From: a virus
Direction: 5' to 3' (one strand)
Virus record (IMG/VR): IMGVR_UViG_3300015371_000074
Span: 1-45,885 of that record
DNA length: 45,885 bases
The translations under genes and the position numbers were made by a program. The notes under the pieces are model-generated. The model did not search any database, had not been told where the DNA came from, and saw nothing but the letters and a program-made list of their open reading frames with translations. The first letter of the stretch is position 1. Each line of letters begins with the position of its first letter. Positions 461 through 30,925 of the stretch are shown here, piece after piece.

Positions 461-507
461 TCGACCGTGGTGGCCCCACCACCACGCAGCAGGAGGAGCA
501 GGGACAT
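1..507 (-). CDS. Repeat-containing tail-region protein (partial)
   Basis: The frame is open from an ATG at 507 to the window edge, so the C-terminus is missing. The start follows GGAG and a 7-nt spacer, five bases past the stop of the upstream gene. After a short Leu-rich and Gly-rich start (about 17 residues) the protein is almost wholly tandem 14-residue units with consensus GSFTLDAVLLKTQ plus S or T; about ten units are visible, interrupted once by a VVEDD variant. The same unit occurs in the genes at 1431-2006 and 20917-23295. Position at the distal end of the tail module suggests a fibre or other exposed tail protein. The function is inferred from position; I do not recognise the family. 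Confidence 0.75.
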   Translation of the reverse strand, partial: MSLLLLLRGGGATTVEDDFSLDAIIKKGQSGSFSADAVIKKTQSGSFGADSIIKKTQTGSFAADAVIFKTQSSTFTLDAVLLKTQSGSFTLDSILKKEQTGSFTLNAVFLKTQTGSFTLDAWLVLVVEDDFTLDAVIFKTQTGSLTLDAIVFKTQSGSFTVDSVLKKEQ

Positions 508-1430: not shown

Positions 1431-2006
1431 TTAGCAGGTCACCACCACGGTTCCGGCTGGGTGAGATGTCGCCCCGTCCCCACGCACGATGGTGAGCGTG
1501 TCGGTGCCGCAGCCACCCACCACGGTCACGATCTCGTTCCCGATTTGGAGGGCATATGGGCACGTATCGGGGAAATCGTCGGGGTTGGTGATGATGATGA
1601 CGGTGTCGTCAGCGTCGATGCCCACTTCCAACTGGCCAACCGGCGCATCAGATTCATGGATCACGGCGTCGATGCCGAAGGTGTGGGTGCGCTCCACGGG
1701 GTCGGGGTCCACGATCTCGGCATCCAGGCCGAACGAGTCGCTGATCGTGTCCTTGATGACCGCGTTCAGGCCGATGACACCCGACAGGTTCCCCGCAGGG
1801 TCATACGGAGCGATGTAGGCATTGAGGCCGAATACGAAGAAGCCGTGGAGGTAGTCCGCCCGGACTTGGGTCCACCTGGCGAGGAGGTCGTCAAGAACGT
1901 CGCATAGCGGCGTCCCCGCCTCGTACCGCCCGATGTCGGCTGAGAGCACAACGGTGCTGCAATCTTCGGTTTCGCGGTGATCGTAGGTGCGGTCGTGCTG
2001 CCACAT
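1431..2006 (-). CDS. Tail-region protein with FGLDA-type repeats, 191 aa
   Basis: ATG at 2006, three bases after the preceding stop. The first 55 residues are acidic and probably helical. Residues about 56-130 carry four to five looser copies of the FGLDA(V/I) unit (FGLNAYI, IGLNAVI, FGLDAEI, FGIDAVI, VGIDADD), the same motif as the long repeats at both ends of the structural region. The C-terminal 60 residues contain three Cys. It lies between a tail-tip protein and the 302-residue gene. A virion role is inferred from position and shared repeats; the exact function is unknown. Confidence 0.65.
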   Translation of the reverse strand: MWQHDRTYDHRETEDCSTVVLSADIGRYEAGTPLCDVLDDLLARWTQVRADYLHGFFVFGLNAYIAPYDPAGNLSGVIGLNAVIKDTISDSFGLDAEIVDPDPVERTHTFGIDAVIHESDAPVGQLEVGIDADDTVIIITNPDDFPDTCPYALQIGNEIVTVVGGCGTDTLTIVRGDGATSHPAGTVVVTC

Positions 2007-9300: not shown

Positions 9301-12300
9301 GAACGGGCTGGCACCCATCTGCCCCGCCGCCACCGCAGCCGGGTCGAACATGGCCATCTGGCCCATCTGGGCCTGCTGGGGCTGCTGGTAGGCGTTCTGC
9401 CGACCGGCCCAGGTGCGAACGGACGACGGCCACAGGTCCTCTGGCTGTCCGCTGGCCTGGAGCCGCCGCACCAACTCGCCCTTGGCCTCTTCGGGCAGCG
9501 AGTTGAACTGCCGGTCGAGGTCTGCCTCTGCGACTGGCGAGGCAGCCTGAGCCTGAGCAGGCTCAGGGGCCATGCGCGGGATGTTCCCGGCGATGTTGTA
9601 CGACCGCTGCACCGGCCCGCTGGCACCCTGCCCGTAGAGGCGCATGCCCTCCTTGGTGCCGGGGTCGATGATTCCGCTCAGGAAACCGGGGATTTGGCCG
9701 CTGAGGCGCGCTAGGACAGAGGCGTCGTCATTGGGTCCAGCCGACCTCCCAGGCTCCGACAGACCCAGTCCGTGGCCCTCGATGCCATGCACCATGCCCA
9801 GGAACGACTGGCCGGTCCGCTCGACACGGGAGCGCAGTTTGCCCAGACCGGCAGCGCCGACCCCGAAGGTCTTGGCTGAGGTCTTGGAGGGATCGGTTTC
9901 GAGTTCGATGACCTCACGGACATCGTTGAGGACCCGCCCAGCCTCATCGACGTAGCGGTCACCGATGAGGGCAAAGACCTTCTCGACCTCGGCCCCCTTG
10001 ATGAGCCGCTGCATCTTGGCCCGGGACCCGGCGGTGATCTTGGTGCGGATGCCGGAGGTGCCGAATCCGCCACGCCCAAGACCCATGGCCGAGGCAATGT
10101 CGCGGACATCGGGCACGTCGATGGGCACGCCGCCCAGGCCCTCCAGTTCGGCCCGCGTACGACGCGCAGAGCCTTCGATGCGCGGCTGACGGACGCCGGA
10201 CTGGTCACGGCGTCGCCACACCGGAATGAAGGGCTCCTCCTTGGGAGGCGGAGGAGGCGTCGGCTGGCCAGGCTGAGGCTGAGGACCGCGCTTGATGCGA
10301 TCCGAGAGCGAAGAGCCGCTGAGGTCGAGTTTGTTGTCCCACAGGCGGTTCGGGAACCGCTCCTCCATGTGGGCGCGCGCCTGACGCGGATCGACGGCGC
10401 TGAACGCACGCCGGTTCGGGTCCTGGAGGAACTCCAGCAGCCCCTTGTCGCCCTTGAGTTCGTTGCAGACCGAGCAGGCCGAGGTCAGCGACTCGACGCC
10501 ACCGCCCTGAGCACGCGGGATGGCGTGATCGGCGTGGCCACGCTCGCGCCCGGTGAACATGGTGCCGCAGTACTGGCAGAAGCCAGTGTTGGCCCGGACC
10601 TCCTCCGACAGGCGGCGATGCGGACCCGTGAGGCCACGCTCGCGCGTCGTACGACGCTTCGCACCCTCCAGCCCGGAGTAGTCGCCCATTGAGGCGTTGG
10701 CCAGGATGTCCTGGAGTTGGCTGAGGCGCTTCTCGTTGTACTGGGGGTCCCCGAACTGCTCGAACGCCTCCTGCTGCTCCATCTCCTCGCGGAGCGCAGC
10801 GATGCGAGCCTGCCGGTTCGTCTCACCGACAGCCGAAGCAGGCCCACCCCGGCGTCCGCGTGTACGCGGCTTGGGGCGGGGCAACTCGTAGGTCTTGATG
10901 AAGTCGTTGAAGAGGGCGTCCCAGTCCTCTGCGCCGAGCGTCTCCGGCGGTGACCCAGGCGGGGGCTCCCCGGCAGGACGCCGTCCGTGCATCTTGCTGA
11001 ACTCTTCGACCGCAGCCCGGTAGTGGCGCGTCTCCTTGCCCTGCGCGGTGGCCTGCTGGGTCTTGAGGTCCTGCTCCGCGAAGAACGACTGCGCAAACGC
11101 CTGCCCGATCATCGAGTTCAGGGCGACGTACTCGGCCTCTTCCGGTCGCTCTGGATCGGGGAGCGCGCCCTCGCTGCGCAGCCGCCTGGCGCGCTGGGTG
11201 CCCTTGGACAGCGCCGCCTTGCGCTCCTGCTCGGTGAGCGGACGCCCGGCCTTCTGCGTCTCCGAGGCGACACGGCGGGCACGGATGAGCGCCATGGCCT
11301 CGGCACGCATCTGGAGCGCGCCGCGCGCCCCTCCCTCGGTACCCATTGGGTCCCCGAAGAACCCGCCGAAGTCCCCGGCCTTGAGTTTGCCCTCCAGTTC
11401 CTCGACCTCGGGCGACATCTGGAGGCCCTTGGCCATCTTCTGGATGGCCTTGGGGCTGCGAGCGCGCTCAGGACCGCCCATGAAGGAGAAGGTCCAGTCG
11501 CGCATGAGGCGCGTCTTGAACTCCTCGGGCGTTTCCCCTTGGCGCTGCTCGATGACATCACCGAGGGCGGCGAAGACCTCGTCTTCGCGCTTGGCCATGG
11601 CCTCATCGAAGAGGGCCTTGCTGTGGGCACGGACCTCCGGGTCGAAACCACCACCTGGGTTGAACCAGGCCATGCTGCGCATGTCGCCCAGCCCACGGCG
11701 TGGATCGTCGTAATCCGGGCGGCGGGAGGTGGTGACACGGCCCTCGACCGGGCGGATGCCCGCAAAGGTGCCGGGGCGCGAGGAGCGCAGGAGGGTGCGC
11801 AGGCCATCTTCGGTGACGAACCGGACGTTGCCGGTGGGAGTCCGACCCGCGTACTCGGCCTCGAAGCCGGATGCACCACGGGGCAGGCGCGGGTTGAGGG
11901 ATTCCAGGCCCGGAATCTCACGTCGGGCAGCCGACATGAAGGTGCTACGGGTGACGGTGCGCCACTCGCGCGCAGCCTCCGCCGACGCCTCCGACGCCGC
12001 CACCGTATTGGCGGCGATCTGCTCTTCCTTGGCCTTCTGCGCCCGCGTCTTGGGCGTGGCCGTGGACATGTTGGCGATGCCGCCGCCTGTGGTGGGCTCC
12101 TCTGGGGCTGGAGCCTGGCGCGGCTGCTGCGTGGCCGTGACCTTCGACCCAGACTGCTGGGGGGCAGACTGGGGCGAGGGAGATGTGGCGTCGCTCTGCC
12201 CGGTGGCTGTACGACGCCCACGGGAGGTCGTACCCTGCTGTGTGCCAGGAGAGCCGCCGGGCGCACCGCCGATGTTGCCGCCCGGTCCCTTGCCATCCGC

Positions 12301-12675
12301 CCACGACCAGGTGACCTCGACGTGGGCCTTGGCCTTGTAGTCGATCTCCAGCGGGATTTTCAGCCCACCGATGGCCTGCTTGACGATGCCCTCTAGGCGC
12401 GCCTTCTCCGCCTGCGGGTCCTCAAGGTGCAGATCGACGTTGATCGGGACGCTGTGCCCCGCCGTGACGCGCTTGACGAGGGCGTTGAGGTCCGACTCGA
12501 TGTTGCCCCACGACTCGCCCTTGACCGCATCGACGGTGACCTGGACCTTGCGACGCTCAATGCGCTTGGTCCAGTTGTCCACCTTCTGGGTGGCATTACC
12601 CAGGGAGGAGTCGAGGCCCGCGATGTCGGCAGTAATGCCGATGGAGATGCCAGCAACTTCGGTGTTGGTAGCCAC
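6343..12675 (-). CDS. Tape measure protein with embedded HNH domain
   Basis: 2110 residues; GTG at 12675 after AAGGAGGTGAGAG. Size, position after the tail assembly chaperones, long helical and Gln/Ala-rich segments, and a hydrophobic stretch near residues 1360-1395 identify the tape measure, which sets tail length and passes through the tail tube. At the usual 0.15 nm per residue the tail would be about 300 nm. Residues about 695-745 contain a complete HNH-like zinc module (CQYC, HADHAIP, CSVCNELKGD). A Gly/Pro-rich linker lies near 1155-1190. The C-terminal part before residue 2110 contains long coiled-coil-like helices. No intein splice motifs are seen around the HNH segment. Confidence 0.93.
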   Translation of the reverse strand: MATNTEVAGISIGITADIAGLDSSLGNATQKVDNWTKRIERRKVQVTVDAVKGESWGNIESDLNALVKRVTAGHSVPINVDLHLEDPQAEKARLEGIVKQAIGGLKIPLEIDYKAKAHVEVTWSWADGKGPGGNIGGAPGGSPGTQQGTTSRGRRTATGQSDATSPSPQSAPQQSGSKVTATQQPRQAPAPEEPTTGGGIANMSTATPKTRAQKAKEEQIAANTVAASEASAEAAREWRTVTRSTFMSAARREIPGLESLNPRLPRGASGFEAEYAGRTPTGNVRFVTEDGLRTLLRSSRPGTFAGIRPVEGRVTTSRRPDYDDPRRGLGDMRSMAWFNPGGGFDPEVRAHSKALFDEAMAKREDEVFAALGDVIEQRQGETPEEFKTRLMRDWTFSFMGGPERARSPKAIQKMAKGLQMSPEVEELEGKLKAGDFGGFFGDPMGTEGGARGALQMRAEAMALIRARRVASETQKAGRPLTEQERKAALSKGTQRARRLRSEGALPDPERPEEAEYVALNSMIGQAFAQSFFAEQDLKTQQATAQGKETRHYRAAVEEFSKMHGRRPAGEPPPGSPPETLGAEDWDALFNDFIKTYELPRPKPRTRGRRGGPASAVGETNRQARIAALREEMEQQEAFEQFGDPQYNEKRLSQLQDILANASMGDYSGLEGAKRRTTRERGLTGPHRRLSEEVRANTGFCQYCGTMFTGRERGHADHAIPRAQGGGVESLTSACSVCNELKGDKGLLEFLQDPNRRAFSAVDPRQARAHMEERFPNRLWDNKLDLSGSSLSDRIKRGPQPQPGQPTPPPPPKEEPFIPVWRRRDQSGVRQPRIEGSARRTRAELEGLGGVPIDVPDVRDIASAMGLGRGGFGTSGIRTKITAGSRAKMQRLIKGAEVEKVFALIGDRYVDEAGRVLNDVREVIELETDPSKTSAKTFGVGAAGLGKLRSRVERTGQSFLGMVHGIEGHGLGLSEPGRSAGPNDDASVLARLSGQIPGFLSGIIDPGTKEGMRLYGQGASGPVQRSYNIAGNIPRMAPEPAQAQAASPVAEADLDRQFNSLPEEAKGELVRRLQASGQPEDLWPSSVRTWAGRQNAYQQPQQAQMGQMAMFDPAAVAAGQMGASPFRWNLGAAGVGVNVGQRMVNVGAAGPASPVGGGGPPPGQGGFGFAGAPGGFGPGGGGRGSSGLSRLGRYSRGPSSVQAEAIAAGVDPALISRIESQSRNQTEGTLEFVAEQQSEIQERLASTPVRALSTAIGQFVAQRVARGPATAKARQAGILSRAITRAGRIAGEQRQVELGTEAILRQERATGIDTRTGQAFTPEREAQLESERQVAQKRRVRAEQLEGRLRPELEDAVKGVAPLRLQIANLAALTPAIVAGGLIFQAAMGLAQAGLDALGKIAGEGAETLTGFNATTKRVQEQLAQAAQERGTVSGAVAGGFAQAGFEPTAEQRALIEGQVGAVVATNRAVQQRDLLRMMENLRTQAPNAQEFGIAPGLVRPTGGLFGTAIGAQQSLDEIIGNEFERIRPQGPTGAFTAFDEGVRGFFDDLMGRPNVGEMRDKAFEGFADNMNRELAQVGQTARFEPGTPMGLGLPNQEQFQQAALLDTLGANELAAAVRDGSVALRDANGEMVMDVEDLAGIVKDLGKALEMPSGRESYRANERQRNAAMMQIQDQFQNQTRLTGPITDFRRFALNRPLPFGTTFDTGDAASGRARAAFGGAAQDAMAAITARRAQGRAAAIEIGVSPQDLSRLEAYGDQIASIRGDLMQRQLAVNTAAYNQQLTVARRTLSDLVGLTGQVGDAQASAVGLAERENLELQRANTLISRRMQARQLDMSQRQINFSLATSQFTTSGATPAEAAAKMEQARIEAQFAQANLNDQRDIFKNEGVQFENQITIVDEQNLRALQDAVFAIQQIERERDLEKYTAAGEEYLGMLQDEADILAQEIDAQIGRGMNFVTLAQDEIRRVYVESGEILTGVTEDIADAFEQIREDYDTWLGDVGNQVPLNNTSGTNTRDRSAGDSPTGGGYATGGLFSTSGAQTITVGEAGNETVAVLRNPRHLLTSEAGGGGMIQININNPSVRNDSDIEAIARAVEETLRQRANLVRPR
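10441..10585 (-). other. HNH nuclease-like domain within the tape measure gene
   Basis: This in-frame segment encodes two CxxC pairs (CQYC and CSVC) around the HADHAIPRAQGG core and ends CNELKGDKG, the pattern of HNH endonucleases of the McrA type. The His of the DH pair and the Asn after the last Cys are kept, so it may be active. The reading frame runs through it without break. Confidence 0.85.
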
Positions 12676-16751: not shown

Positions 16752-18041
16752 TTATGCCTGCTGCACCCGGACCTTGTTCGAGAAGATCGGTGCCTTGACG
16801 GCAAGGCCCCACATCCCGAACACGATGTACAGGTGGGTCAACTGGCCGCTGATCCCAATCGGGATGTCCAGCACGGTCGGACCCGGGGAGCCCAGGTACG
16901 GGATCGTGACGGTGCGGCTGTTGAGCAGGTAGATGTCCGCGACATCGTTCGACGCGCGTGTGTACTGCCCGATGGAGTCACCGGGAACAGCGAACAGGCC
17001 GAGCCCACCGAAGATGGTGTTCACGGTCTGCACGTTCACGCCGACCGCTGCATTGGCGATGTCGCCCATGTAGCGGACGTTCTGGTCCTGCTGGTGGTTG
17101 AAGGCCATGAGTTCCTGCGGGCGAAGGAAGATGCGATCCACCGTCCCGCCGTTGTTCATCGCCTCCAGCAGGGCCGAGTCGATGGCCTGCCGGATGTTCT
17201 CCGGATCGGGGGATGCGGTCGGGTCCACGTCCACGGCACGCGCCGTGTTCAGGATGCGCCGCAGCCCGTCGAACGAGTTGGCGTCGAACGCGCCCTGCTC
17301 GTCGTCCTCGGTCCCGAGAGCGTACGTCGCATTGCCCTGGAAGATGGTCTTCTGCATCTTGTGGGCAATGGAGCGCATGCCGCCCTGGAGTTCGAGGTTC
17401 TCCGGGTTGAAGCCGGAACCGCTCTGGAGAGCCGCGAACTGGCTCTTGAGCGACACCCCACGCCGGGTGGCCAGGATCGCCACGTTGGTCGTCTGACGAA
17501 CGTAGGTGCTCTGGTCATCCGTCACGGTGCCGAGTTCCGACATGAACTGCGCGTCACCGAAGGAGGTCAGTTGGTTGAAGGCATGGACGAGGCCGTTCGC
17601 GGGCTCCTTGGGCAGATCATCGAACGCCGGGAACTCGCGGACGAACAGTTCGTACATGATCGGCTCAAGGTCCTGCCGGATGAGGGCAGAGCCAGAGCCG
17701 GAATCGAGGGCCTTGGTCAGGATCGCGTCGCTGGCGACGGCTGCCTGAACCGGACTCCCGCCTGTCGCGGCCCAGACATCGAACGGGATGCCGGTGTCCT
17801 TGCGCGACGCCTGCATGGCGAACATGGCATGCAGTTCAGGAATGCTCTTCTTCTTGAGTTCCGACCGGACTTCGTACATGTCGGACTGCGACATGTACTT
17901 CTTGACCGGCGCGGAACTCGGGCTCTCAGTCGGCCCCGCTGTGGGGGTCGTGCTGGGAGTCTCGTTCAGGGCCTCCAGGCTCTTCTGAATCTCCCCAAGG
18001 GAGTTGAGAGCGGCCTTGAGGTCCTGGTCGGTATCACCCAT
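16752..18041 (-). CDS. Major capsid protein, HK97 fold
   Basis: 429 residues; ATG at 18041 overlaps the protease stop by 8 bases. An N-terminal helical and Pro/Ser/Thr linker region (about residues 1-60, LKAALNSLGEIQKSLEALNE) resembles the delta domain removed on maturation of HK97-like capsids. The rest matches HK97 major capsid style: SALIRQDLEPIMYELFVREFP, an E-loop region with GSGFNPENLELQGGMR, and PYLGSPGPTVLDIP near the end. It forms the head shell. Following the protease gene and before connectors is the standard order. Confidence 0.85.
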   Translation of the reverse strand: MGDTDQDLKAALNSLGEIQKSLEALNETPSTTPTAGPTESPSSAPVKKYMSQSDMYEVRSELKKKSIPELHAMFAMQASRKDTGIPFDVWAATGGSPVQAAVASDAILTKALDSGSGSALIRQDLEPIMYELFVREFPAFDDLPKEPANGLVHAFNQLTSFGDAQFMSELGTVTDDQSTYVRQTTNVAILATRRGVSLKSQFAALQSGSGFNPENLELQGGMRSIAHKMQKTIFQGNATYALGTEDDEQGAFDANSFDGLRRILNTARAVDVDPTASPDPENIRQAIDSALLEAMNNGGTVDRIFLRPQELMAFNHQQDQNVRYMGDIANAAVGVNVQTVNTIFGGLGLFAVPGDSIGQYTRASNDVADIYLLNSRTVTIPYLGSPGPTVLDIPIGISGQLTHLYIVFGMWGLAVKAPIFSNKVRVQQA

Positions 18042-19206
18042 TGGTGGTATCTCCCGAGGTCAACATCTTGATGAAGTCGGGCTCGTAGATGCCGCTGAAC
18101 TTCGTGTGGAAGTCCGAGATGACGGCAGCATGCGAGGCCCGCCTACCGATAGGCAGTTCGGCCAACTTGTTGACGAACTGCTTTGCGAGTTCGACGTTGG
18201 CATTCGCCTCGTCGCGCTCGCGCTCCAGGGCCGCGACCTTCTTGTTGGCGTCCCACAGGGCCTTCTTCGCCTCCACCAGTTCCCCGGTGGCAGACTCGAC
18301 CATCTTCAAGAGGGTCGTGAAGTCGGCCTGCTTCATCGCCAGGAGGTTCTTGGCCTCATCACCAACAACGTCGGAATCGAGTTCAGACGCAGGCATCGGC
18401 TCCTTGGCCGGTGCTGCGGTCTTCTCGGGCTCCGTGCTCTTGGTGGTGCCGTCCGCAGAGGACTCAGGGGCCGGTGCATCACCTTCCTGCGCTGCCTCGG
18501 GCTCCGGTGCCGCCGCTGGAGTGGGGTTCTCCACGCCCCCCTCAACGGTTGTGACATCCGGCATGTTGTCGCTGTCCACCGACTCAGCGGGCGAGGGGCT
18601 GGCGACCTTCTCGTCGCCTTCCTCGCGGGCCTCGGTGGCGTTGTCAGGCTGATCTTCGCGGCGATCCGCCTCCTTCTCCGACTTCTCCTCAGCCTCTTCC
18701 AGCGCCTTGATGGCGTAGTGGACGAAGGAGCGCGGATTGGCGGGGATGCCAACGATGGATGCCTCCAGGAGCGCGACATCGTCAATGACGGTCACGCCCG
18801 TGGAGCGATCCTTCCAGGCGTCCTTGACGAGGGCTCCCACGCTGGTGCCCAACTTGACGCCCCGGATGATGCTCTTGTGCGTCGCTACGGCGCGGGGGTT
18901 GTCCTCCTCGACCTCGATGTCGAAGTCCAGGTCGAACTCATCGCCACGCTGTTCGATGTTGGCGGTCTTGACGATCCCGAACACGTCCTCGGGGACCGAA
19001 TACGAGTGGTTGAGGAAGACCGTCATGCCCTCTGCGGAGGACGCCATCGACTGGAGGGCCTTGAGGGTCATCTGATCGCCCTGGCGATCTGTCAGGGTGC
19101 TTGATGCGACGGTCTTGATCCGCTTCTTGCCGTCCTCGGCGTCATACGCCTTGAGGAGTCCCGAGAAGACGTTGAACTTCGTCGCCGGAAGGGGCTGCTT
19201 GTCCAT
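18034..19206 (-). CDS. Prohead protease fused to a scaffold-like region
   Basis: 390 residues; ATG at 19206 after GGAGG. Residues about 20-185 are an S78-type prohead protease: LNHSY (His67) and GTSVGA (Ser122) fit the catalytic pair, with FDIE and LLEASIVGIPANPRS nearby. Residues 200-290 are an acidic, Pro/Ala/Glu-rich linker, and about 300-370 form a coiled coil (LLKMVESATGELVEAKKALWDANKKVAALERERDEAN broken by linkers), typical of scaffolding. One polypeptide probably supplies both scaffold and maturation protease. The first 65 bases overlap the end of the glycosyltransferase gene. Confidence 0.85.
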   Translation of the reverse strand: MDKQPLPATKFNVFSGLLKAYDAEDGKKRIKTVASSTLTDRQGDQMTLKALQSMASSAEGMTVFLNHSYSVPEDVFGIVKTANIEQRGDEFDLDFDIEVEEDNPRAVATHKSIIRGVKLGTSVGALVKDAWKDRSTGVTVIDDVALLEASIVGIPANPRSFVHYAIKALEEAEEKSEKEADRREDQPDNATEAREEGDEKVASPSPAESVDSDNMPDVTTVEGGVENPTPAAAPEPEAAQEGDAPAPESSADGTTKSTEPEKTAAPAKEPMPASELDSDVVGDEAKNLLAMKQADFTTLLKMVESATGELVEAKKALWDANKKVAALERERDEANANVELAKQFVNKLAELPIGRRASHAAVISDFHTKFSGIYEPDFIKMLTSGDTTNG

Positions 19207-20383
19207 GTGCCAGTTCCTCCAAGAACTCATGGAACCTGTCCGCCGCGAAGTCCCACTTGAACTTCCGAACGTGGTCCCGACCTTCGAGGCCCAACTTCCT
19301 CCGCACACCTCCAGCGGTGTACAGATGTTCGAGGGCCTCGGTGAACGCAGGGATGTCCGCCAACCAGTGGTCCTGGGCGCTGGTGAAGGTGATCTCGGTC
19401 AACGGATCGACCAGAACACCGCCAGAGCCAACGACTTCGGGGATGGCTGAGACGTTCTGCGCGATAACGGGAACGCCGCAGGCTGCGGCTTCCGCGAGGG
19501 TGAGCCCGAATCCCTCGCCACGCGATGTGGAGAGGAACACGTCGGCTGCGTTCATCAGACCGACTAGGTCCTCGACTGGCCATCCGTGACTGGAAGTGAC
19601 CATATCGGGGAAGAAGAACCGGCCCTTAGTGTCCGGGTCCCGGCCCAAGAGGGCCTCCATGTTCACCGAGGCGTTTCCGTGCCCCTTGACGCAATGGAAG
19701 TGGACCTGAACGTCTGAATGCCGCTTGAGGAACGGCACGAGGGCCTTCCAAGAAGCGGGGTAGTCCTTACGGACGGTGTTGGTGTCGATGCGGAGGACGA
19801 GGAAGCCATCCGGGTCGAACCCAAAAGCCTGCTTGCACTCGCGCTTGGTGGTCACCACCATCCCGTTGGAGAGCGTGAGCGGCTCCTGGGAGGAAACCGG
19901 GTGGAAGGTGTCCGTATCGACGCCGTGATAAACGACTGGGGCCTCCGGCATGGCCTCCTGACCCCACTTGGTCATCGCCACGCGCTTCATGCACTTTTCG
20001 AGGAGGTCCCAGTTGGGCGGATTGTTGATCCCATCTATCGGGATGTACCCCAAGATCGGGCGGTACTGGAGCAGCAGGCGCTTCGGGTCGTACGGGTTCT
20101 CGAAGAGGATTTGGATGTGCTCCCAGGGGTCCCCCAACATCACCACCACGTCCGGCTCTAGCGCGAGCATGTCCAGGATGCGCGAGCGTCCGTAGTAGTC
20201 CTTGGGGTCCCGCATGGTGGGGACGTACAACTTGAGAGTCGTGTCCCAGTAGTCGCCCTTGTGATTACGAGCCAGGACGTGAACGTCGTGGCCCCTCTCA
20301 ATAAGCCGCTCCCCGATGGCATGGGTAACGCGAGCGAAGCCGGTGTGACACGCAGCGTCACCCAGCCAAAGGATTCTGGCCAA
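19142..20383 (-). CDS. Glycosyltransferase family 4-like (GT-B), 413 aa
   Basis: ATG at 20383 with AAGGAGTACCTCC-type context. The N-terminal MARILWLGDAACHTGFARVTHAIGERLIERGHDVHVLA is a GT-B start, and the C-terminal half has the donor-site E-x7-E element EGFGLTLAEAAACGVPVIA near residue 290-308, preceded by LMNAADVFLSTSRG. Such enzymes transfer a sugar from a nucleotide donor. It sits inside the virion gene block directly before the protease, with a second glycosyltransferase and an acyltransferase 6 kb upstream. Modification of virion proteins is a reasonable inference, but the acceptor is unknown. Confidence 0.88.
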   Translation of the reverse strand: MARILWLGDAACHTGFARVTHAIGERLIERGHDVHVLARNHKGDYWDTTLKLYVPTMRDPKDYYGRSRILDMLALEPDVVVMLGDPWEHIQILFENPYDPKRLLLQYRPILGYIPIDGINNPPNWDLLEKCMKRVAMTKWGQEAMPEAPVVYHGVDTDTFHPVSSQEPLTLSNGMVVTTKRECKQAFGFDPDGFLVLRIDTNTVRKDYPASWKALVPFLKRHSDVQVHFHCVKGHGNASVNMEALLGRDPDTKGRFFFPDMVTSSHGWPVEDLVGLMNAADVFLSTSRGEGFGLTLAEAAACGVPVIAQNVSAIPEVVGSGGVLVDPLTEITFTSAQDHWLADIPAFTEALEHLYTAGGVRRKLGLEGRDHVRKFKWDFAADRFHEFLEELAHGQAAPSGDEVQRLLGTPQGV

Positions 20384-20916: not shown

Positions 20917-23295
20917 TCACACCTCAATCCATGCGTTCAGGCCGAACTGGTGCTCGATGTGGTACGTGTTCTGGCTTCCCAGGAACTCGGCGCTGTTCGT
21001 CGCTGCCAGGTAGCCCGTAGCCGAAGACGTGGATGCGATCTGGTTCGCGGTGCTGGTGGCCGAAATGAAGTCCCCCTCGGCGGTGAAGCCCACCACCGCC
21101 GCCATCAGGTCCCCGAACTCGACAAAGAAGGGGATGCCGCGCGTCAGGACCGCGTTGAGCCCGAAATCGTGCTCCTGGGTCTTGAGGACGATGGCGTTGA
21201 AGCCGGTGGTGGCGGTCACCACTTTCAACTTCCAGGCGTCGATCCCGAAGTCGGCGGTGAACGTCTTGCGCTGGATGGCCGCGAGGCTGAACGAGCCTTC
21301 GAGGGTGTCCTTCTGGATGGCGTTGAGGCCGAAGGCACTCTCGATGGTCTTGAAGATGACCGAGTCCGCACCAAACGAGGCGGTGGTCGTGCGCCGGATG
21401 ACGGCGTCTAGGTCGGCGTCTCCCTCGAATGTGGCCTTCTGGATCGCGTTGATCCCGAATGAGGACTCGGTGGTCTTCTTGACGACCGCGTCCGCACCGA
21501 AGGTGCTCTGAACGACCTTGAGCAGGAACGCATCGAGGCCGAAGTCATCCGATTGCGGGGACAGCAGTACGGCTTGGAGGTCAAAGCCGCCCGTTGCGGT
21601 GGCGCGGATGATGGCGTCGGAGCCAAAATCGGCGGCGTATGTTCGCCGTAGAACGGCGTCGAGCGAGAATGTAGCACCTTGGGTCTTGAGAAGTACAGCA
21701 TCGAGGCCGAAGTCGTCTTCAACAACGCTCGGTCCGCTGCTGAAAATGACCGCGTCGATCCCGAAACTGGCCGACTGGGTCTTCTTGATGACCGCGTCGA
21801 GCGTCGTCGTTCCCTGCGGTGCAGTCAGGACGATGGCGTCGATGCCGAAGTCCCAGAACTCCTCGCTCGATACCGGCAGCGCCAGCAGGGTGCCGATGTT
21901 GACGGCGCTGGTACCAGCGGTTGCTGTGCGGGTGCCGGTCGCACCCTGTGCGGTCGGCGTCTTGTGCGCGATCTCGGTGCTGACCCCAGCCGTACCCTGG
22001 TCGGTGTTGGGGTCTTCGATCATGCCGCTCGGCGGCGTGAACGAGGTATTCGCAGCGGTGGAGCCGACGAACACCAGCATCGTGTTGGGCGACGTGGTCG
22101 TAATCGTGGGAGCCACGACGCTGGTGGAGGCCGCGTTGACCTGCTGCCCGAAAACCTGCACGTCCAACACGGACGAGTAGGCGTCGATCACGCCCGCCGA
22201 CTTGATGTTGCCCGACAGGGTCCAGGTCCAGTTGGCCGGAGCCCCAGACGGAACGATGTAGCGGTAGACCGCCTGGCCCAGGACGGTGCCAGAGGTCTGC
22301 CGCGTTCCGACTAGCGACCACCCCGAGGGGACCGAGGTAATGGTCGTATTCGAGCCTGCGTCATCGCTGACCGAGGCGATGAGGATGTCGCCCTGAGCCG
22401 TGCCGCTCGGCTTGTTGAGGGTGAGGGTGGTGTCGCCTGCTGCCTTACCGCCGCCCTTGTGGTTCGCGCCCTTGAGACGGGCGTTGACGCCAAACGATCC
22501 CTGCTGCGGCGCACCAGCGAAGAACGCCTCAACGACGACCGAGGTGGTGCGCACGGCGACCGTGGAGGGCAGGATGTACGTCTCAGCGACGACCGAGGTG
22601 GTGCGGACGGCGGGGGTCGGAAGGATGTACGCCTCAGCCGCGACGCTCGTAACGCGGGCGCGGGTGCCGGGCAACTTGAACGACGCACCGACGTTGGTGC
22701 CGGAGCCGGAGTTCGTGACCGTCTCGATGACGCTGATGCCAGCGCCACCTGCGTCAGCGACCAGTTCGATTTGCGAGACGCCCCACAGACCAGCGTCGAG
22801 GCTGGTGGACTCCCCGGCATACGCAGCCGTTGGGCCGTTCGTGTCGTACAGCGTGATCTCTTGGGCACCGCTGGACGTGAAGCGCGAGGTCAGGCCGGTC
22901 GGCGGATCGTTCGGCGTCAGCGTGAACGGATCGTTGGCCAGGAACGCGGCCAGCACCCAAGCGGTCGATGCCGCTGGTGTGATCGCGCCGATGGTGAACG
23001 GGTTGGCCGTGACCATCGTCATGGCGTTGTGAGCGCCAATCGGAGTGGTTAGATGCTGGCCCCGATAGATGGCGACGCCGGAGCGCCAAACCGGGCTGCT
23101 ACCGCCGATTCCGAAGGTGACGATGCTGCCAACATCGTCGGCGGCGAGCACCTTGTAGGCCCAGTGGGCACGGACCGAACTGCCGGAACCACCGGACGAC
23201 GACGCTGTCGAGATCGTGGTCCAGCCACTCGGATTGGTGACCGCCGACGTGTTGTTGGCAATGACCAGCGCAATGGCAATGTCGCCGGATTGCAC
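20917..23295 (-). CDS. Large tail/receptor-region protein with 14-residue FGLDAV repeats
   Basis: 792 residues; GTG at 23295 just after the lectin-like gene's stop. Two copies of a beta domain (QSGDIAIALVIANN and AQGDILIASVSDDAG starts, both with PSGWT-type loops and a Y-R-Y/YRG strand) lie at about 1-190 and 285-470. Between them is a threefold repeat RTTSVVAETYILP. Residues about 480-725 hold some 16 tandem units of 14 residues (FGLDAVLLKTQGAT type), followed by a Ser/Thr/Ala-rich tail ending QFGLNAWIEV. It is probably a surface tail or head fibre. The repeat links it to the genes at 1-507 and 1431-2006, 20 kb away. Confidence 0.75.
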   Translation of the reverse strand: MQSGDIAIALVIANNTSAVTNPSGWTTISTASSSGGSGSSVRAHWAYKVLAADDVGSIVTFGIGGSSPVWRSGVAIYRGQHLTTPIGAHNAMTMVTANPFTIGAITPAASTAWVLAAFLANDPFTLTPNDPPTGLTSRFTSSGAQEITLYDTNGPTAAYAGESTSLDAGLWGVSQIELVADAGGAGISVIETVTNSGSGTNVGASFKLPGTRARVTSVAAEAYILPTPAVRTTSVVAETYILPSTVAVRTTSVVVEAFFAGAPQQGSFGVNARLKGANHKGGGKAAGDTTLTLNKPSGTAQGDILIASVSDDAGSNTTITSVPSGWSLVGTRQTSGTVLGQAVYRYIVPSGAPANWTWTLSGNIKSAGVIDAYSSVLDVQVFGQQVNAASTSVVAPTITTTSPNTMLVFVGSTAANTSFTPPSGMIEDPNTDQGTAGVSTEIAHKTPTAQGATGTRTATAGTSAVNIGTLLALPVSSEEFWDFGIDAIVLTAPQGTTTLDAVIKKTQSASFGIDAVIFSSGPSVVEDDFGLDAVLLKTQGATFSLDAVLRRTYAADFGSDAIIRATATGGFDLQAVLLSPQSDDFGLDAFLLKVVQSTFGADAVVKKTTESSFGINAIQKATFEGDADLDAVIRRTTTASFGADSVIFKTIESAFGLNAIQKDTLEGSFSLAAIQRKTFTADFGIDAWKLKVVTATTGFNAIVLKTQEHDFGLNAVLTRGIPFFVEFGDLMAAVVGFTAEGDFISATSTANQIASTSSATGYLAATNSAEFLGSQNTYHIEHQFGLNAWIEV

Positions 23296-23297
23296 GG

Positions 23298-24284
23298 CTA
23301 ACTCACCAGTTCAACGCCAGCCTGTAGTGCCGACAAGTCGGTCCACGCAGCCGACGTGTCTGGGTCCTGCTCCAGCAGGGCGTCGCGGACCTCCGTGACG
23401 TAGGCGTCGGGCACCGACTGCGTCGTTCCGTTCACGGTGGTCGATCCGCTCTTGAGTTTGGTGCGCGCTGTACGCACGCCAGCGTCGTCCTTGCGCCAGC
23501 GGGCACTAACGCCCACCGCCTTGATCGTGCCAGTAGAGCCCGGCGTGGTCAGGTTGTAGAGGTCGATGTTGCCCGCCGTAACGCTGCTGACATACGTGGT
23601 GTCGTCGTCGGGCGTCGTCGTCTCATCGACGTTGCTGACGTTGGTGGAACTCAGGGGTGTCCACTGTGTCGAGGACCCGGCGGCGTCCGGCGTAATCGCC
23701 ACGCAGCGGCCCGGCCCGTACTTGGTGCTGGCGACGTAGATGTCGCAGATGTCCTGCGTGTCTGCGTTGTTGCCACGACTCATCAGCCACGAGTCGATGG
23801 TGCCGTTGCCGCCAGCGCGCGTGTCCACCGTCGTGGGCGCGATGCGCTGGACGCCGTCGATCCACATCTCGACGGTGGCCGAGTCGGCAATGGTGGCGCG
23901 AATATCGACGCTGTACCAAATGTTGGCGAGGATTGTGAGGCCGGTAGCGGTGGCGACCACGGTCCCGGCGCGGGAGAGCGCGAGGTTGCTGCCGCTGATG
24001 CGGAGCCCAAGGTGTTCGGTAGCCCCCAAGCCTTCACACAGACGGACCGCGAGGGCGGTGTTAGGGGTATTGAAGTTGGCGCGCCACTTGAAGCCGGTAT
24101 AGAACTCGGTGCCCTGCGGAACGGACGTGCGGAAGGGCTTGGAGCCCGACCCGTTCTGGGCAACGCGAATCACGTTCTGGCTCTGGGGACCACCGCTGGT
24201 GATGGCGATACCGTCGCTGGTCCAGCCGCCCTTCGTCCCCGTGGAGTAGTACGCCCCGCACGAGTCGATGAAGTATGCCGTCAT
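23298..24284 (-). CDS. Lectin-like (LamG/ConA type) structural protein, 328 aa
   Basis: ATG at 24284 with AGGAGGT upstream. The first 200 residues read as a concanavalin-like jelly roll (TSVPQGTEFYTGFKWRAN, WYSVDIRATIADSATVEMW, IDGVQRI). The C-terminal 120 residues (WTPLSSTNVSNVDETTTPDDDTTYVSS...IDLYNL) recur in minor tail proteins of actinophages. It may bind carbohydrate on the host surface or on the virion. Assignment is by motif style and context. Confidence 0.7.
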   Translation of the reverse strand: MTAYFIDSCGAYYSTGTKGGWTSDGIAITSGGPQSQNVIRVAQNGSGSKPFRTSVPQGTEFYTGFKWRANFNTPNTALAVRLCEGLGATEHLGLRISGSNLALSRAGTVVATATGLTILANIWYSVDIRATIADSATVEMWIDGVQRIAPTTVDTRAGGNGTIDSWLMSRGNNADTQDICDIYVASTKYGPGRCVAITPDAAGSSTQWTPLSSTNVSNVDETTTPDDDTTYVSSVTAGNIDLYNLTTPGSTGTIKAVGVSARWRKDDAGVRTARTKLKSGSTTVNGTTQSVPDAYVTEVRDALLEQDPDTSAAWTDLSALQAGVELVS

Positions 24285-25670: not shown

Positions 25671-25880
25671 TTACCGAGCCGTGGACCAGGTGTTTTCCAG
25701 GTCAACCTCTTCGGGGGTCTTCGGCTCGCTGTTGCCCGCCATGGGCGAAAGACCCGCGTCTTCCTTGGTCTGAGGGGCCGACCCCTGCTCATCCCAAGCG
25801 GTGTTGTTGTTGGGCTCGCCCGGCTTGCGGTAGTTCCACTGGGCGATGTCCTCAACGTCCTTCTTCTTCTTCGATGCCAC
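25671..25880 (-). CDS. Small hydrophilic protein, 69 aa
   Basis: GTG at 25880 after AAGGAGGAACTCC, which decides this start over upstream ATGs in the same frame. The 69 residues start with a Lys run (ASKKKKDVEDIAQWNYRKP) and are otherwise Asn/Glu/Pro-rich and probably disordered. It overlaps the end of the glycosyltransferase gene by 29 bases. Function is unknown. Confidence 0.6.
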   Translation of the reverse strand: MASKKKKDVEDIAQWNYRKPGEPNNNTAWDEQGSAPQTKEDAGLSPMAGNSEPKTPEEVDLENTWSTAR

Positions 25881-26661
25881 GGAGTTCCTCCTTCGAGAAC
25901 GCGAGTGACGCCACCGAGGGCCACCACTCGTAGTTGGTGACGTACGGCCACCCGAACCGTTCAGCCACACTGGTACATGCGTCGTGCATCATCAGTTTGT
26001 TGTGGCTCTCCCACCCCACATTGCCCTTCCCAGCCTCGTAATAGCGCAGGTAGTCGCGCATCATTTCGTCTAGGGAACGGGTGTGGTCGATGTAGCCATA
26101 CGGCCACCAAATCGCCCGCTTTGGGGACGGGCGTGAGTGCATGGTCTTCGGCCATCCGGCGTTCCTCCGGAAGAGGCGGAGGTGCCCGTGCTGCTCTTCG
26201 TACTCAACCCCCTCCACGAACGAGTGGAAGGGGACCCAGACGCCGTCATAGACATCCTTGGCGTAGGCCGTGGCGCTATGGAGCGACTGGAGCAGTTCGA
26301 TGTCCGGGCGCTCGTCGCATGCAACGGCGAAGCACCAGTCCGTTGTCGTCGCGGCCACCATCCGGGGCATCGACGCATCGCCGTGTCCCAGGTGGGGGTC
26401 TTCGAGGATCACGTCGCCCTCGCGGGTCAACAGGCCCTTGGCGATCTCCAGCGTGTCGTCGTCCGACTGCTGCACGCACACCACGGTGTGGGTGAACCAG
26501 GGCTTGAGATACTCGATTAGTCCGCCGATTCGTTCTGACTCGTTCCAGGCGACGATCAGCAGAGTGATGTGGTCATACGGCGGAACGTTGGGGTGACTGA
26601 TCTCTGTCTTCGCAACGATCTCGGGGATCGTGTCGGTGACGACAGTGAATCCGTCACCCAT
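25852..26661 (-). CDS. Glycosyltransferase family 2-like (GT-A), 269 aa
   Basis: ATG at 26661 overlaps the acyltransferase stop by 8 bases. It has the GT-A start YDHITLLIVAWNESERIGGLIEYLKPWF broken by VVCVQQSDDDTLEIAKGL, where the acidic cluster is the nucleotide-sugar contact region, then DWCFAVACDERPDIEL in the DXD-like position. The C-terminal half has many Trp/His/Tyr residues. It probably transfers a sugar. Together with the acyltransferase and the GT-B enzyme it suggests a small glycan-building set made with the virion proteins. Confidence 0.8.
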   Translation of the reverse strand: MGDGFTVVTDTIPEIVAKTEISHPNVPPYDHITLLIVAWNESERIGGLIEYLKPWFTHTVVCVQQSDDDTLEIAKGLLTREGDVILEDPHLGHGDASMPRMVAATTTDWCFAVACDERPDIELLQSLHSATAYAKDVYDGVWVPFHSFVEGVEYEEQHGHLRLFRRNAGWPKTMHSRPSPKRAIWWPYGYIDHTRSLDEMMRDYLRYYEAGKGNVGWESHNKLMMHDACTSVAERFGWPYVTNYEWWPSVASLAFSKEELRGIEEEEGR

Positions 26662-27328
26662 GCGGCCTGGGAGTCCCGAAGAACTCCTCCACCATGTCCT
26701 CATCGGGTCCCCACCCTCCGAAGCCACGCTCGGTGTACTTGCGCCGCTCCAGAGTGCGGGCAGGCACACCCATCACCTTCTCGCCATCAGGCACGTTGTG
26801 GGTCACAACGGCCCCTGCTCCCACCACGGCATCCTCACCGATGAGGACGCCCGGCAAGAGCAGGGCACCGCCGCCGACCCTAGCACGGGCTCCAATCTTC
26901 GGACCGACCACCTCACCGCCGCGCTGCATGGAGTTGTCGTTCATGGTGTAGACGCCCACGGAGATGAACGCCTCGTCACCAATGACGCAGTCGTAGGTGA
27001 TGTGGGTGAGGTCCACGATCTTGACCCGATTGCCGATGGTGGCCCCGTTCTGCACGGTGCAGTTGGAACCGACCACCGTGGAGTCCCCGATGGTGGTGTT
27101 CTCCCGGATGATCGTGCCGTCACCGATCAGGCAGTCGTCGCCCAGGTGGACCCCCGCGTAGATCACCGCGTTGGCCCCGATGACGCAGCGTTCCCCGATC
27201 TTCGTCTCGCGCGGCTCCTCCGGCTTGCGGGCGATCACGCCCGCCGCCATCGGTACCCGCCCGATGATCGCTCCCGGGAACACCGTAGTGCTGGCCGGGA
27301 TTGTGACCGGGACGATCAGCCGGGTCAT
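26654..27328 (-). CDS. Left-handed beta-helix acyltransferase, 224 aa
   Basis: ATG at 27328 overlaps the previous stop by 4 bases (ATGA). Residues about 40-185 are tandem hexapeptide repeats (IGERCVIGANAVIYAGVHLGD, IGDGTIIRENTTIGDSTVVG and following), the left-handed beta-helix of acetyl- and acyltransferases. The end GVPARTLERRK matches the family's C-terminus. Members of this fold acylate sugars or amino sugars using an acyl-CoA donor. The next gene is a glycosyltransferase, so a modified sugar is a likely substrate. Confidence 0.88.
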   Translation of the reverse strand: MTRLIVPVTIPASTTVFPGAIIGRVPMAAGVIARKPEEPRETKIGERCVIGANAVIYAGVHLGDDCLIGDGTIIRENTTIGDSTVVGSNCTVQNGATIGNRVKIVDLTHITYDCVIGDEAFISVGVYTMNDNSMQRGGEVVGPKIGARARVGGGALLLPGVLIGEDAVVGAGAVVTHNVPDGEKVMGVPARTLERRKYTERGFGGWGPDEDMVEEFFGTPRPHG

Positions 27329-27813
27329 GTCTCGTCGTACGAGTACGACACCGTCTCGGTCGGCCAGTTCCCCGGCGAGGCACCCGACCCCACTTGCAAC
27401 TGGAACACCGAGTACTTGGTCGTCGCGTTCAGGGCCGACAGGGACGCTGAATCCCAGGTGCCCTTCGCACCCGACGTAACCGTGGTGAAGTCGGTCGTCG
27501 CCACCGATGAGGTGGAGGCGGTGGGCGTGGTGTAGGACGTGACCGCACCGGCCCACATCAGGGTGGTGTTGGCCGCGACCGCGCCATCGCCCCAAATCTT
27601 GAAGTTGGTGACCGCGTTGGCCGGGACCACGTCGATCTTCAACTTGCAGAACTTCTCGAACGAGTTGGTGCCGACCGTGATCGGGTTGGCCTGCCGGTTC
27701 GCCAGCGAGTTGGTGGCGTTGTCGGCGCTGATGAGGTCAATGCCGGTGACGGCGCTCGACTCTGAGCCGGGCGACGAGCCGGTCTGGACCCGCAGGGTGA
27801 GGGTAGCGACCAT
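27325..27813 (-). CDS. Putative virion protein, 162 aa
   Basis: ATG at 27813 after AAGGAGCAACG. Ser/Thr/Ala/Val-rich (TLTLRVQTGSSPGSESSAV, WDSASLSALNATTKYSVFQL) with few charges, typical of beta-rich structural proteins. It lies just downstream of the portal gene, where minor capsid or decoration genes are common. No family is recognised. Confidence 0.6.
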   Translation of the reverse strand: MVATLTLRVQTGSSPGSESSAVTGIDLISADNATNSLANRQANPITVGTNSFEKFCKLKIDVVPANAVTNFKIWGDGAVAANTTLMWAGAVTSYTTPTASTSSVATTDFTTVTSGAKGTWDSASLSALNATTKYSVFQLQVGSGASPGNWPTETVSYSYDET

Positions 27814-27822
27814 CGTTGCTCC

Positions 27823-29193
27823 TTATGAGCCTCGGCGCGGGCGCGAGGAAGCCCCGGAGGAGGGCGTTCGTCCCGGACGTGCGGCGGGGGTGGCAGGGGG
27901 TTTCTTGGATTCGAGGGCCTCCTGCGCGGATGGCACCTCTTCGAGGTTCACGGCCCCGACCGGCGTGGTCATAATGAGTTCATCGAACTCCGGCCCCATC
28001 GGCTCTCGACCGTCTTCCTTGCGGGCCTCGTTCACCGTCTTCCACGGAGTTCCACCCAGCGCGATCTTGTTGATCTGCGCGCGTGAAAGCGTCTCCTTGA
28101 GGTTGAGGCTGGTGAAGCGGAAGGCCAGGTTGTTCTCTGGGCCACCAAATGCCGGGTCCCACACGATCTCGCGGGTGAAGTAGTCCTGGATGAGCGCGAG
28201 GAGCGGGCGGAGTCCCCGGTCCTCGGTATGCTCGGACTGCACCTCGGAGGTCGAGCGGTTGACATCCATGGTGATCCCAAGGTCCTGCGGAGCGAGGCCG
28301 AACACCGCCGCGATCTTGCGGACGAGGTACTCCTGCCACTCCAAGAACTGCATGTCCTTGTTGCTGTCGCGGAACGGGATGAACTTCGCGTTCTTCGTCC
28401 CGCCCAGGAACGCCATCGCTCCTCGGCCAGCAACCTCAGACAGCCAGTACGACTTGAACTGCTCGACCTGCTCAGGGCGGACGCCCTCACCCAGATCGAG
28501 CATGCCGTCCGGGGCAGCGGCCTGCACCTGACGGCGGTTGTATTCGTGGCCTCCGAGTTCGGCGTCGATGGTCGCCTTGAGCGTCTCCATCGGTGATAGC
28601 CCGACCGGCGAGTAGGTCCTCGGGTTGGCCATCATGTACACGAACTCTTCGTTGAGCCACCTGGCGCGCTCCTGGTGATCGGGGTACCAGAAGTACCTCA
28701 CCTCACGCGGGTCGCCATCCCAGGTCAGCGAGACGCGAACCGTCCCGCCATCGACGGCCCACATCTGGACCGTCTCGCCCCGCAGGTTACGCACCTTCTC
28801 GATGCAGCCCGCGTCCAAGACCAGCAGGTCCTCGACCACCGGCTCCACGAAGGCGCGAAACGAGCCGGACGCCACGTTGGGCGTGTCGAACAGGCCCTTG
28901 ATGCGCTTGGCGAGGCGCTTGTTATCGACTTCAACGTCCGGATTGGCGGGGACGATGTCCCAGTCGGCGCTCGAAACCTGGGTCTTGCGCACGTTGATCG
29001 CGGCGCGCACCCACTCGGAGTGCTCGGACCAGTTGCGGAAGATGCGGACGTGGCTCTTGGCGACCTGGTTGCCGTTGTAGACCATGCCGATCCCGGCGGT
29101 GGTCACCTCGGGGATTTTCTTGGGTGTGGCCCGGGGCGGTGCCTCCTTGGGACGGGTGACGACCCGCTTCGCCACCCACTCCTGGATGCTCAT
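27823..29193 (-). CDS. Portal protein
   Basis: 456 residues; ATG at 29193 overlaps the upstream stop (ATGA). Sequence pattern of the HK97-type portal: WVRAAINVRKTQVSSADWDI near residue 60, FVEPVVEDLLVLDAGCIEKV, then SPMETLKATIDAEL, FGLAPQDLGI with NRSTSEVQ, and LNLKETLSRAQI. A Pro/Ser-rich tail follows residue 410. The dodecameric ring is the DNA gate at the head vertex. Directly downstream of terminase as expected. Confidence 0.9.
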   Translation of the reverse strand: MSIQEWVAKRVVTRPKEAPPRATPKKIPEVTTAGIGMVYNGNQVAKSHVRIFRNWSEHSEWVRAAINVRKTQVSSADWDIVPANPDVEVDNKRLAKRIKGLFDTPNVASGSFRAFVEPVVEDLLVLDAGCIEKVRNLRGETVQMWAVDGGTVRVSLTWDGDPREVRYFWYPDHQERARWLNEEFVYMMANPRTYSPVGLSPMETLKATIDAELGGHEYNRRQVQAAAPDGMLDLGEGVRPEQVEQFKSYWLSEVAGRGAMAFLGGTKNAKFIPFRDSNKDMQFLEWQEYLVRKIAAVFGLAPQDLGITMDVNRSTSEVQSEHTEDRGLRPLLALIQDYFTREIVWDPAFGGPENNLAFRFTSLNLKETLSRAQINKIALGGTPWKTVNEARKEDGREPMGPEFDELIMTTPVGAVNLEEVPSAQEALESKKPPATPAARPGRTPSSGASSRPRRGS

Positions 29194-29392: not shown

Positions 29393-30925
29393 CTACCTCC
29401 CGACCGCGCCGAAGAAGAACCCACCGCCGCCCAGGTCCATGGAGAACCCGAGCGCGTCGATCATGTCGTCGTGGCCCTTGGGAAATGACAGCAACTCCGT
29501 CTCGAACTCCGAGCCCTTGAGGCTGCTGTGGTGGAAGACCTTGTGAGCCTCGTACTTGGCGGCGACAGCGCGAGCGCGCGTCACCTTGTCCACGTCTGAT
29601 TTCTTCCCTTCCACGGGAAGACGTGGGTAGTCCCGTGCCAACTGCTGGATGAGCGTGGACTGGAACTGCTGGGACTCGATGATGATGAGCGCCATGTTCG
29701 GGTGGGCGATCCAGCCGTCCATGACGAACTCCGCGTGGTGGGTTTCCCGCTTATCACGAACGACACTGAGTACGTAGAAGTTGCCATCCTCGTCCTCCGC
29801 CGTCGTCACCCGAGCGGTGAAGTCGGCACGCTCCCTCTCACTCGATGCGAGGTCCACACCCATCCGGATCGTGTACTTCTTATCGGGAGGGAGGGCCTGG
29901 AAGTAGTAGTTGTCATCGAGGCGCTTGAAGATGTTGCCCGCCATGAGGCCGGAGATGTCGTTGAGGTACGAGCACGCGAACATGGGCGAACCCATGTCAA
30001 TGCGCTCCGCCTCCAGTCGTTCCAGGGGCCACATGTTGGGCCACAGGGCTTGACGCTCTCCCTCTTCATCTTCGTAGATCGCTCCTCGGATCAGACTTCG
30101 CCAGCCCTTGCCGCCCTCATCGACCGGGGTGATGAGTTTTTCGTACATGTCGCCCTCGGCCCATCGGGTACCGAGCACGATCACCACGCCGTCTGGGGTG
30201 AGGCAGGGCTTGAGCGTCTTCCAGAACCACTCCTCGATCTTCTCCTGCTGCTCGATGTTGGCGGTGTTCTCCTCATCGAGGATGTCGTCGCACAGGATCA
30301 GGTCGAACCGCTTGGAAATGATCGCGCCACCGGCTCCAGCCGAGTACAGGGTCACGTTGTTGGAGCCGTGGTGCTTCGATCCCTCGCGCAGCCACTCCAC
30401 GTCGGTCCACTTCACGCGCCCGACGATGTCCCCGAACAACTGCTTGAACTTGGGGTTGGACTCATAGGTCCAGCGGATGGCGCGCGAGAAGCCGTTGCTC
30501 TGCTTGGCGGTGTTGGAGATCAAACCCACACGGATGTGCGGGTTGAGCGCAATCAGCCAGGACAGCAGGATCGTGTTGCCCCAGGTGGTCTTGGCGTGCC
30601 CTCGGGGCTCCAGGATGACCGCGTTGGTCTTGGAGTCCATGCAGTCGAGGATGAACTCGACCATCTCGCGGTGGTGGTCGGCAGGAGCATGGCCGTAGAC
30701 GAACTCGCCGTAGGCGAAGGGATCAGTTGAGGCGAGGCCCTTCAAGGCGATCTGTCGGAGTTCGACCATCTCCAGGTCCGACAAGTTTCGCCCGAGTAAG
30801 TCGTTCAAGTTCCCGGAGAACCTGGAGATCGGGTCCTCCGGCGGTTCCGGAGTCAGTGATGTGGACGCCAAGGACGGTCGCCTCCGATCTGCTAGTTGCG
30901 CCGCCCGAGATGATCTGGAAGGCAT
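29393..30925 (-). CDS. terL: Terminase large subunit
   Basis: 510 residues if started at 30925. The ATPase domain has Walker A EPRGHAKTT (residues 106-114) and Walker B LILCDDILDEE (Asp213-Asp214). The nuclease domain has GVDLAS (Asp358) and ends with DDMIDALG. It cuts and pumps DNA into the prohead. The first 200 bases overlap the small subunit gene. The stretch DLLGRNLSDLEMVELRQIAL broken at residue 60 looks like real protein, so the start is upstream of the ATG at 30769 or is that ATG. The exact start is undecided. Confidence 0.93.
   Translation of the reverse strand: MPSRSSRAAQLADRRRPSLASTSLTPEPPEDPISRFSGNLNDLLGRNLSDLEMVELRQIALKGLASTDPFAYGEFVYGHAPADHHREMVEFILDCMDSKTNAVILEPRGHAKTTWGNTILLSWLIALNPHIRVGLISNTAKQSNGFSRAIRWTYESNPKFKQLFGDIVGRVKWTDVEWLREGSKHHGSNNVTLYSAGAGGAIISKRFDLILCDDILDEENTANIEQQEKIEEWFWKTLKPCLTPDGVVIVLGTRWAEGDMYEKLITPVDEGGKGWRSLIRGAIYEDEEGERQALWPNMWPLERLEAERIDMGSPMFACSYLNDISGLMAGNIFKRLDDNYYFQALPPDKKYTIRMGVDLASSERERADFTARVTTAEDEDGNFYVLSVVRDKRETHHAEFVMDGWIAHPNMALIIIESQQFQSTLIQQLARDYPRLPVEGKKSDVDKVTRARAVAAKYEAHKVFHHSSLKGSEFETELLSFPKGHDDMIDALGFSMDLGGGGFFFGAVGR

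Follow-up and report, generated by a model that had tools for sequence, protein, structure and literature searches.

Short repeats are known to build rods in the 14-residue head repeats of YadA-type proteins and in the adenovirus and reovirus triple beta-spiral, the latter with a 15-residue period and a conserved Gly/Pro turn. The repeat described here, found in an IMG/VR viral record of 45,885 bases (the window, that is, the whole stretch of DNA analysed), is similar in length to these rod-building repeats, but its unit has a conserved D-A core and no conserved turn Gly or Pro. It also resembles collagen-like and SDHRHG-type repeats (labelled by eye), which we take to be fibre repeats: in both cases tandem units follow an attachment-like domain and occupy the same gene slots, but the 14-residue F-x-x-D-A-V unit of the window has no Gly-X-Y or His-x-His pattern. 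The lactococcal phage baseplate upper protein (BppU, PF10651) is represented by a BppU_N-like domain in the array proteins of two relatives, with scores (22.9 and 22.0) just under the Pfam gathering cut-off of 23.1; the window proteins have no match to it, and the 14-residue array is not known to be part of BppU. The BACON-domain repeats of crAssphage likewise form an evolving tandem repeat in a phage protein but are reportedly whole carbohydrate-binding-type domains rather than 14-residue units (PMC6949934).

The structural genes of the window lie on the minus strand. In the direction of that strand they run from terminase and portal through small proteins, including two glycosyltransferases and a hexapeptide-type protein, to P0005, P0001, GT1 and the major capsid protein, and then through connectors and a 2110-residue protein to P0007, P0006, P0003, P0004 and P0002. 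The features used below are as follows.

29393-30925 and 27823-29193, minus strand: terminase and portal, respectively
23298-24284, minus strand: P0005, immediate upstream neighbour of P0001
20917-23295, minus strand: P0001, head-side array protein of 792 residues, in which two beta domains precede 17 tandem units and a unit at the C terminus
22696-23286, minus strand: beta domain 1 of P0001, residues 4 to about 200
22459-22500, minus strand: isolated unit of P0001, residues 266-279, ahead of beta domain 2
21856-22392, minus strand: beta domain 2 of P0001, residues 302-480, common to the array proteins of relatives
21130-21855, minus strand: tandem array of P0001, 17 14-residue units, residues 481-722
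20920-20952, minus strand: C-terminal unit of P0001, ending QFGLNAWIEV before the stop (the closest relative, L254, ends alike in SFGISAWIEV)
19142-20383, minus strand: GT1, group 1 glycosyltransferase, the next gene downstream of the head-side array
16752-18041, minus strand: major capsid protein
6343-12675, minus strand: 2110-residue protein in tape-measure position
3656-6346, minus strand: P0007, hub-like tail-region protein with a C-terminal M23 peptidase, whose homologue is fused to units in relatives
2010-3656, minus strand: P0006, tail-region protein and anchor for the tail slot; arrays adjoin its homologues in relatives
1431-2006, minus strand: P0003, probable tail fibre in which units (about 1644-1838) come after a conserved N-terminal domain
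1-507, minus strand: P0002, tail-side array protein cut by the contig end, with units at 1-459

Several other features of the locus were observed. Residues about 670-754 of the protein in tape-measure position resemble an HNH endonuclease, and a homing insertion is possible. The two glycosyltransferases and the hexapeptide-type protein within the head cluster (19142-20383, 25852-26769 and 26654-27595, minus strand) are kept in relatives, and virion glycosylation is possible. A TROVE/vWA (Ro60-like) protein and an SPFH/Band 7 protein are encoded at 36877-38643 and 35892-36827 (minus strand), and an SPFH gene is near the terminase in relative L041 too. Between the two beta domains of P0001 there is a 54-bp tandem repeat (22524-22638) unrelated to the 14-residue unit.

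The unit, approximately [G][S]F[T/G][A/L/V]DA[V][I/L]KKTQ[S/T], is encoded on the minus strand in P0001, P0002 and P0003. The sequence-only reading had proposed that these three structural genes share a 14-residue repeat, and this is borne out by a profile, by shuffling and by lag-14 same-residue identity (P0002 0.50, P0001 0.24; most other lags give roughly 0.05). A profile built from 1061 units of relatives, with the window's own units excluded, finds 16 units in P0001, 10 in P0002 and 2 in P0003, and none in seven other window proteins; in 200 shuffles the same profile finds at most 1, 1 and 0, respectively. The counts given in the sequence-only reading, about 16, about 10 and 4-5 units, are close to those obtained: 17 tandem units plus the isolated and C-terminal ones in P0001, where spacing is 14 save for one of 18; 10 full units plus an 11th cut by the contig end in P0002, in the exact 42-bp register that had been described; and 3 units by profile with 1-2 weaker ones by eye in P0003. 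The genes had been placed 20 kb apart, which holds for P0001, but P0002 and P0003 lie close to each other among the tail genes.

Among 1309 units from 60 arrays found in relatives, 93% have Ala at position 7, 91% Asp/Asn at position 6, 92% Ile/Leu/Val at position 9 and 82% Phe/Leu at position 3; Gly occupies position 1 in 42%, and no column is rich in Pro. Spacings between units are exactly 14 in 945 cases, 15 in 38 and 28 in 99, and the aromatic units show no clear super-period. With the 14-residue spacing dominant and no Pro-rich column, the triple beta-spiral does not fit, and no YadA/Hep_Hag Pfam family was found up to an E-value of 1 for P0001-P0003. Synonymous codon sharing between P0001 units equals the expectation from codon usage (0.520 vs 0.523) and that between P0002 units is slightly above it (0.664 vs 0.583); across arrays it is 0.446 for neighbouring units and 0.408 for units more than 15 apart. 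The units are therefore old, their protein pattern having been held by selection while synonymous sites became saturated. These sites show no recent exchange between units or between genes, and recent gene conversion is rejected.

No match to the repeat was found in Pfam, in PHROGs, among PDB sequences or, using tblastn with P0001, P0002, L093, L046 and L033, in isolated phages. The sole isolated-phage matches of P0001 and L093 are a beta domain in prophi79-1 and a BppU-like domain in Halorubrum tailed virus 25, respectively. Since P0001 finds a 22-kb relative at an E-value of 3.7e-12, similar arrays in isolated phages should be detectable, unless the low-complexity filter masked them. A related-locus search seeded with P0002 and P0001 found no relative, and no paper on a 14-residue phage repeat was found among publications judged by title or the start of the abstract. 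The repeat is thus apparently an undescribed family, in keeping with the earlier failure to place it in a known one. A two-unit DNA pattern matches 74 stretches of viral contigs, of which 62 encode at least three units in frame; in bacterial and archaeal genomes, searched with one genome per species, it matches at least 119 stretches, and only 3 of the 119 matches listed encode at least three units. Judged by sequence, the repeat is widespread in uncultivated tailed phages. One of these three (L182) lies in a genome contig labelled Diapherotrites archaeon; this contig carries arrays, equals viral record L104 in length (39,772) and is probably a phage contig placed in an archaeal bin. An ORF of L223 is of the same size as an ORF of L104.

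Each unit probably contributes one short beta strand at positions 3-9 (F-x-[ALVI]-D-A-V-[ILV]) and a variable loop at positions 10-14 and 1-2, and units joined end to end would build a shaft beside globular domains. An AlphaFold model of the P0002 array, calculated from 42 aligned arrays (model 1), is a regular solenoid with a strand at positions 3-9 in all 11 units, at a pLDDT of 57.2 and a pTM of 0.52. Foldseek with this low-confidence model gave no PDB match at an E-value of 1e-3, and the nine matches in a viral library at 1e-3 or less all had poor TM-scores. Its VIA matches were mostly beta-helices (the best being SufB-SufD, Z-score = 13.1, 2.9 Å over 151 residues), which for a model of low confidence would indicate at most a fold class. 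In a second model, of P0001 residues 286-570, the beta domain has block pLDDT values of 69-88 over its first 80 residues, and the six units are unstructured (pLDDT about 35-45), where the alignment is also ragged; a fold search with beta domain 2 gave no clear match (best Z-score 6.4). The beta-solenoid suggested from the sequence is a possible fold, seen at low confidence in model 1 but not in model 2.

Residue coupling is strong within the unit (z up to 15.1), and none was found between neighbouring units in a test for parallel or antiparallel stacking, which is not what tight stacking predicts. This observation, together with the unstructured units of model 2, the occurrence of single units apart from arrays and the fact that, of 63 closed array ORFs counted with duplicates, 12 have a unit at or just before their end, often as a C-terminal DA[FWV]I[VA], would also suit units that act as independent linear motifs, each a short strand in a flexible tether, which together dock many copies of one virion or host molecule, so that the array is a multivalent string and not a rigid shaft. 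However, a flexible string has no need of the near-strict spacing, and the replacement of arrays by collagen-like and SDHRHG-type repeats, described below, points to a shaft; we regard the motif string as quite unlikely.

The gene slots were surveyed with GT1 or P0006 as seed, not with the repeat. An array of 4 to 91 units ends within 2 kb upstream of GT1 in 40 of 56 usable loci (GT1 identity of 40% or more and no less than 1.5 kb of upstream sequence), in none of nine loci with a more distant glycosyltransferase (36% identity or less), and downstream in none of 80 GT1-seeded loci. The comparison of unit number between related phages, recommended earlier, thus shows it to be very variable within one slot. 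Arrays are present in 16 of 24 loci seeded on P0006, located in the next gene downstream (the P0003 family), in genes further on or in one ORF with the upstream hub protein, and in-frame fusions with P0007-like hub proteins are found in L040, L063, L068 and L069. Relatives of P0003 have the N-terminal domain in common (38-44% by tblastn over up to 101 residues). In one array ORF (L101, 1486-4539) the N-terminal part matches a phage methyltransferase family, phrog_15480, at an E-value of 5e-14.

Where the 14-residue array is missing, other repeats may take its place. Among 16 GT1 slots that lack the array, seven contain a different tandem repeat within 2.5 kb, with units of about 20-21 residues (L262, L306, L311, L312 and L317), 24 residues (L266) or collagen-like character (L263); in the remaining nine no tandem repeat was detected. 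Two tail slots have a P0003-type N-terminal domain with a different continuation in the same protein: collagen-like repeats in L244 and a 45-residue SDHRHG repeat in L243. The virus of L244 has the collagen-like repeat in its GT1 slot as well (L263). The closest relative (L254; GT1 73% identical) has a 20-residue repeat together with 14-residue units in both slots. The two slots do not always agree in repeat type: no 20-21-residue repeat was seen in the tail slots of 3300046740_000391 and 3300009176_000030, which have it on the head side, and the 20-residue repeat of 3300025325_000038 was likewise not found in its tail slot. This second repeat, of about 20-21 residues (R-T-x-x-D-x-x-x-x-S-D/E-x-x-T-R; L094, L099, L254, L306, L311 and L312), occurs alone or preceding the 14-residue array in the same slot. 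A Trp-rich repeat (FLDWADTTR) lies between the array and the BppU_N-like domain in L047 and L093.

As the same slots hold other tandem repeats, including collagen-like ones, we read the arrays as exchangeable fibre shafts. On grounds of position, exchange and constraint, the 14-residue unit probably builds the shafts of virion fibres, as a module that can be exchanged, throughout a large lineage of uncultivated tailed phages. This is consistent with the hub fusions, the slot surveys, the replacement by other repeats, the near-cut-off BppU_N-like domains, the protein pattern kept in spite of saturated synonymous sites, the strand in every unit of model 1, the agreement of the two slots in array presence and subtype (below) and the homologues of P0005, whose positions in isolated phages coincide with or adjoin genes annotated as tail fibre. 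The low model confidence, the missing coupling between neighbours and the nine array-less GT1 slots without a detected repeat speak against it. P0001 would form a long fibre, its gene occupying an accessory slot upstream of GT1, and P0003, which starts with a conserved and probably attaching domain, and probably P0002 would be shorter fibres adjoining the tail hub; the phages may alter the shaft by swapping or lengthening arrays.

The two slots vary together. Among viruses with both slots visible, the window left out, 14-residue arrays occur in both slots in nine and in neither in five, with no discordant case (14/14), which for independent slots has a probability of 1/2002 (5.0e-4). Each virus was counted once; contigs showing only one slot were left out, as were 3300049442_000202 and 3300025327_000717, apparent duplicates with identical ORF sizes and scores, and the sequence of one of the five viruses with neither array (L236) stops 0.6 kb past P0006. 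Unit composition is also closer within a virus than between viruses (Jensen-Shannon 0.134 vs 0.181; permutation p = 5e-5, n = 10 including the window). Where both slots have at least eight units, a virus's own head array is the nearest for 8/8 tail arrays and its own tail array the nearest for 5/8 head arrays. The matching is strongest at position 5 (0.095 vs 0.322), remains when this position is removed (p = 0.00075) and is seen for the loop alone. The best head-tail unit pairs have 0.60-0.79 DNA identity.

The Leu subtype at position 5 is scattered on the trees of GT1 (L031 and L086 left out of the alignment), of P0006 and of both joined: 3300028831_000155 (Leu) is sister to 3300042191_000021 (Ala) on all three, and 3300003267_000287 (Leu) is sister to 3300046740_000391 (Ala) on the GT1 and joint trees but not on that of P0006. 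As sisters differ in subtype while their slots match, both arrays must have changed together more than once. Similarity within a virus might reflect only its overall amino-acid composition, as the matching of loop positions 10-14 would allow. This reading is decidedly improbable, in that sister viruses differ in subtype and the share of Ala at position 5 in one slot follows that in the other (r = 0.94) and not the Ala/(Ala+Leu) of GT1 and P0006 (r = 0.25 and 0.11); the control for relatedness and composition is nevertheless partial.

It is likely that the shared subtype reflects either an old spread of the array between the fibre genes of one virus or a need of the fibres to fit together. The loop matching favours old transfer, and the effect at the strand position leaves room for co-assembly. 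The initial proposal of a common assembly or of recombination between the genes thus agrees with the subtype co-variation, but recent recombination does not, given codon sharing near the baseline. A more specific but rather unlikely arrangement is a single composite shaft made up of the long fibre from the head side and the short arrays from the tail side, in which a hub stub of the same repeat is continued by the fibre. Such a shaft would require both genes to carry the same type of residue at strand position 5 (Ala, Leu or Val/Ile) and to switch subtype jointly.

A tail fibre would not usually be encoded between the portal and capsid genes, as P0001 is. Capsids can be modified by phage glycosyltransferases. 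The head-side array protein could accordingly be a capsid fibre or decoration, possibly glycosylated by GT1 and GT2, leaving only the tail-side arrays as tail fibres; its conserved place among the head genes, next to two glycosyltransferases and a hexapeptide-type protein, agrees with this. Capsid modification by a glycosyltransferase is suggested for one phage (PMC11256854). However, the BppU_N-like domains in two array proteins, the position of P0005 homologues beside tail-fibre genes and the match of subtype with the tail arrays make a capsid role unlikely, and P0001, like the tail-side proteins, probably belongs to the fibres of the virion.

Because the searched family libraries do not contain the repeat, probable fibre genes of a large group of uncultivated phages go unannotated, and the repeat profile finds these candidates. 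As far as can be told from sequence comparison, the co-change of distant arrays links the two genes to one structure or one source. Matched subtypes in genes about 20 kb apart are a rare and testable signature of the co-assembly of fibre parts or of the exchange of shaft modules.
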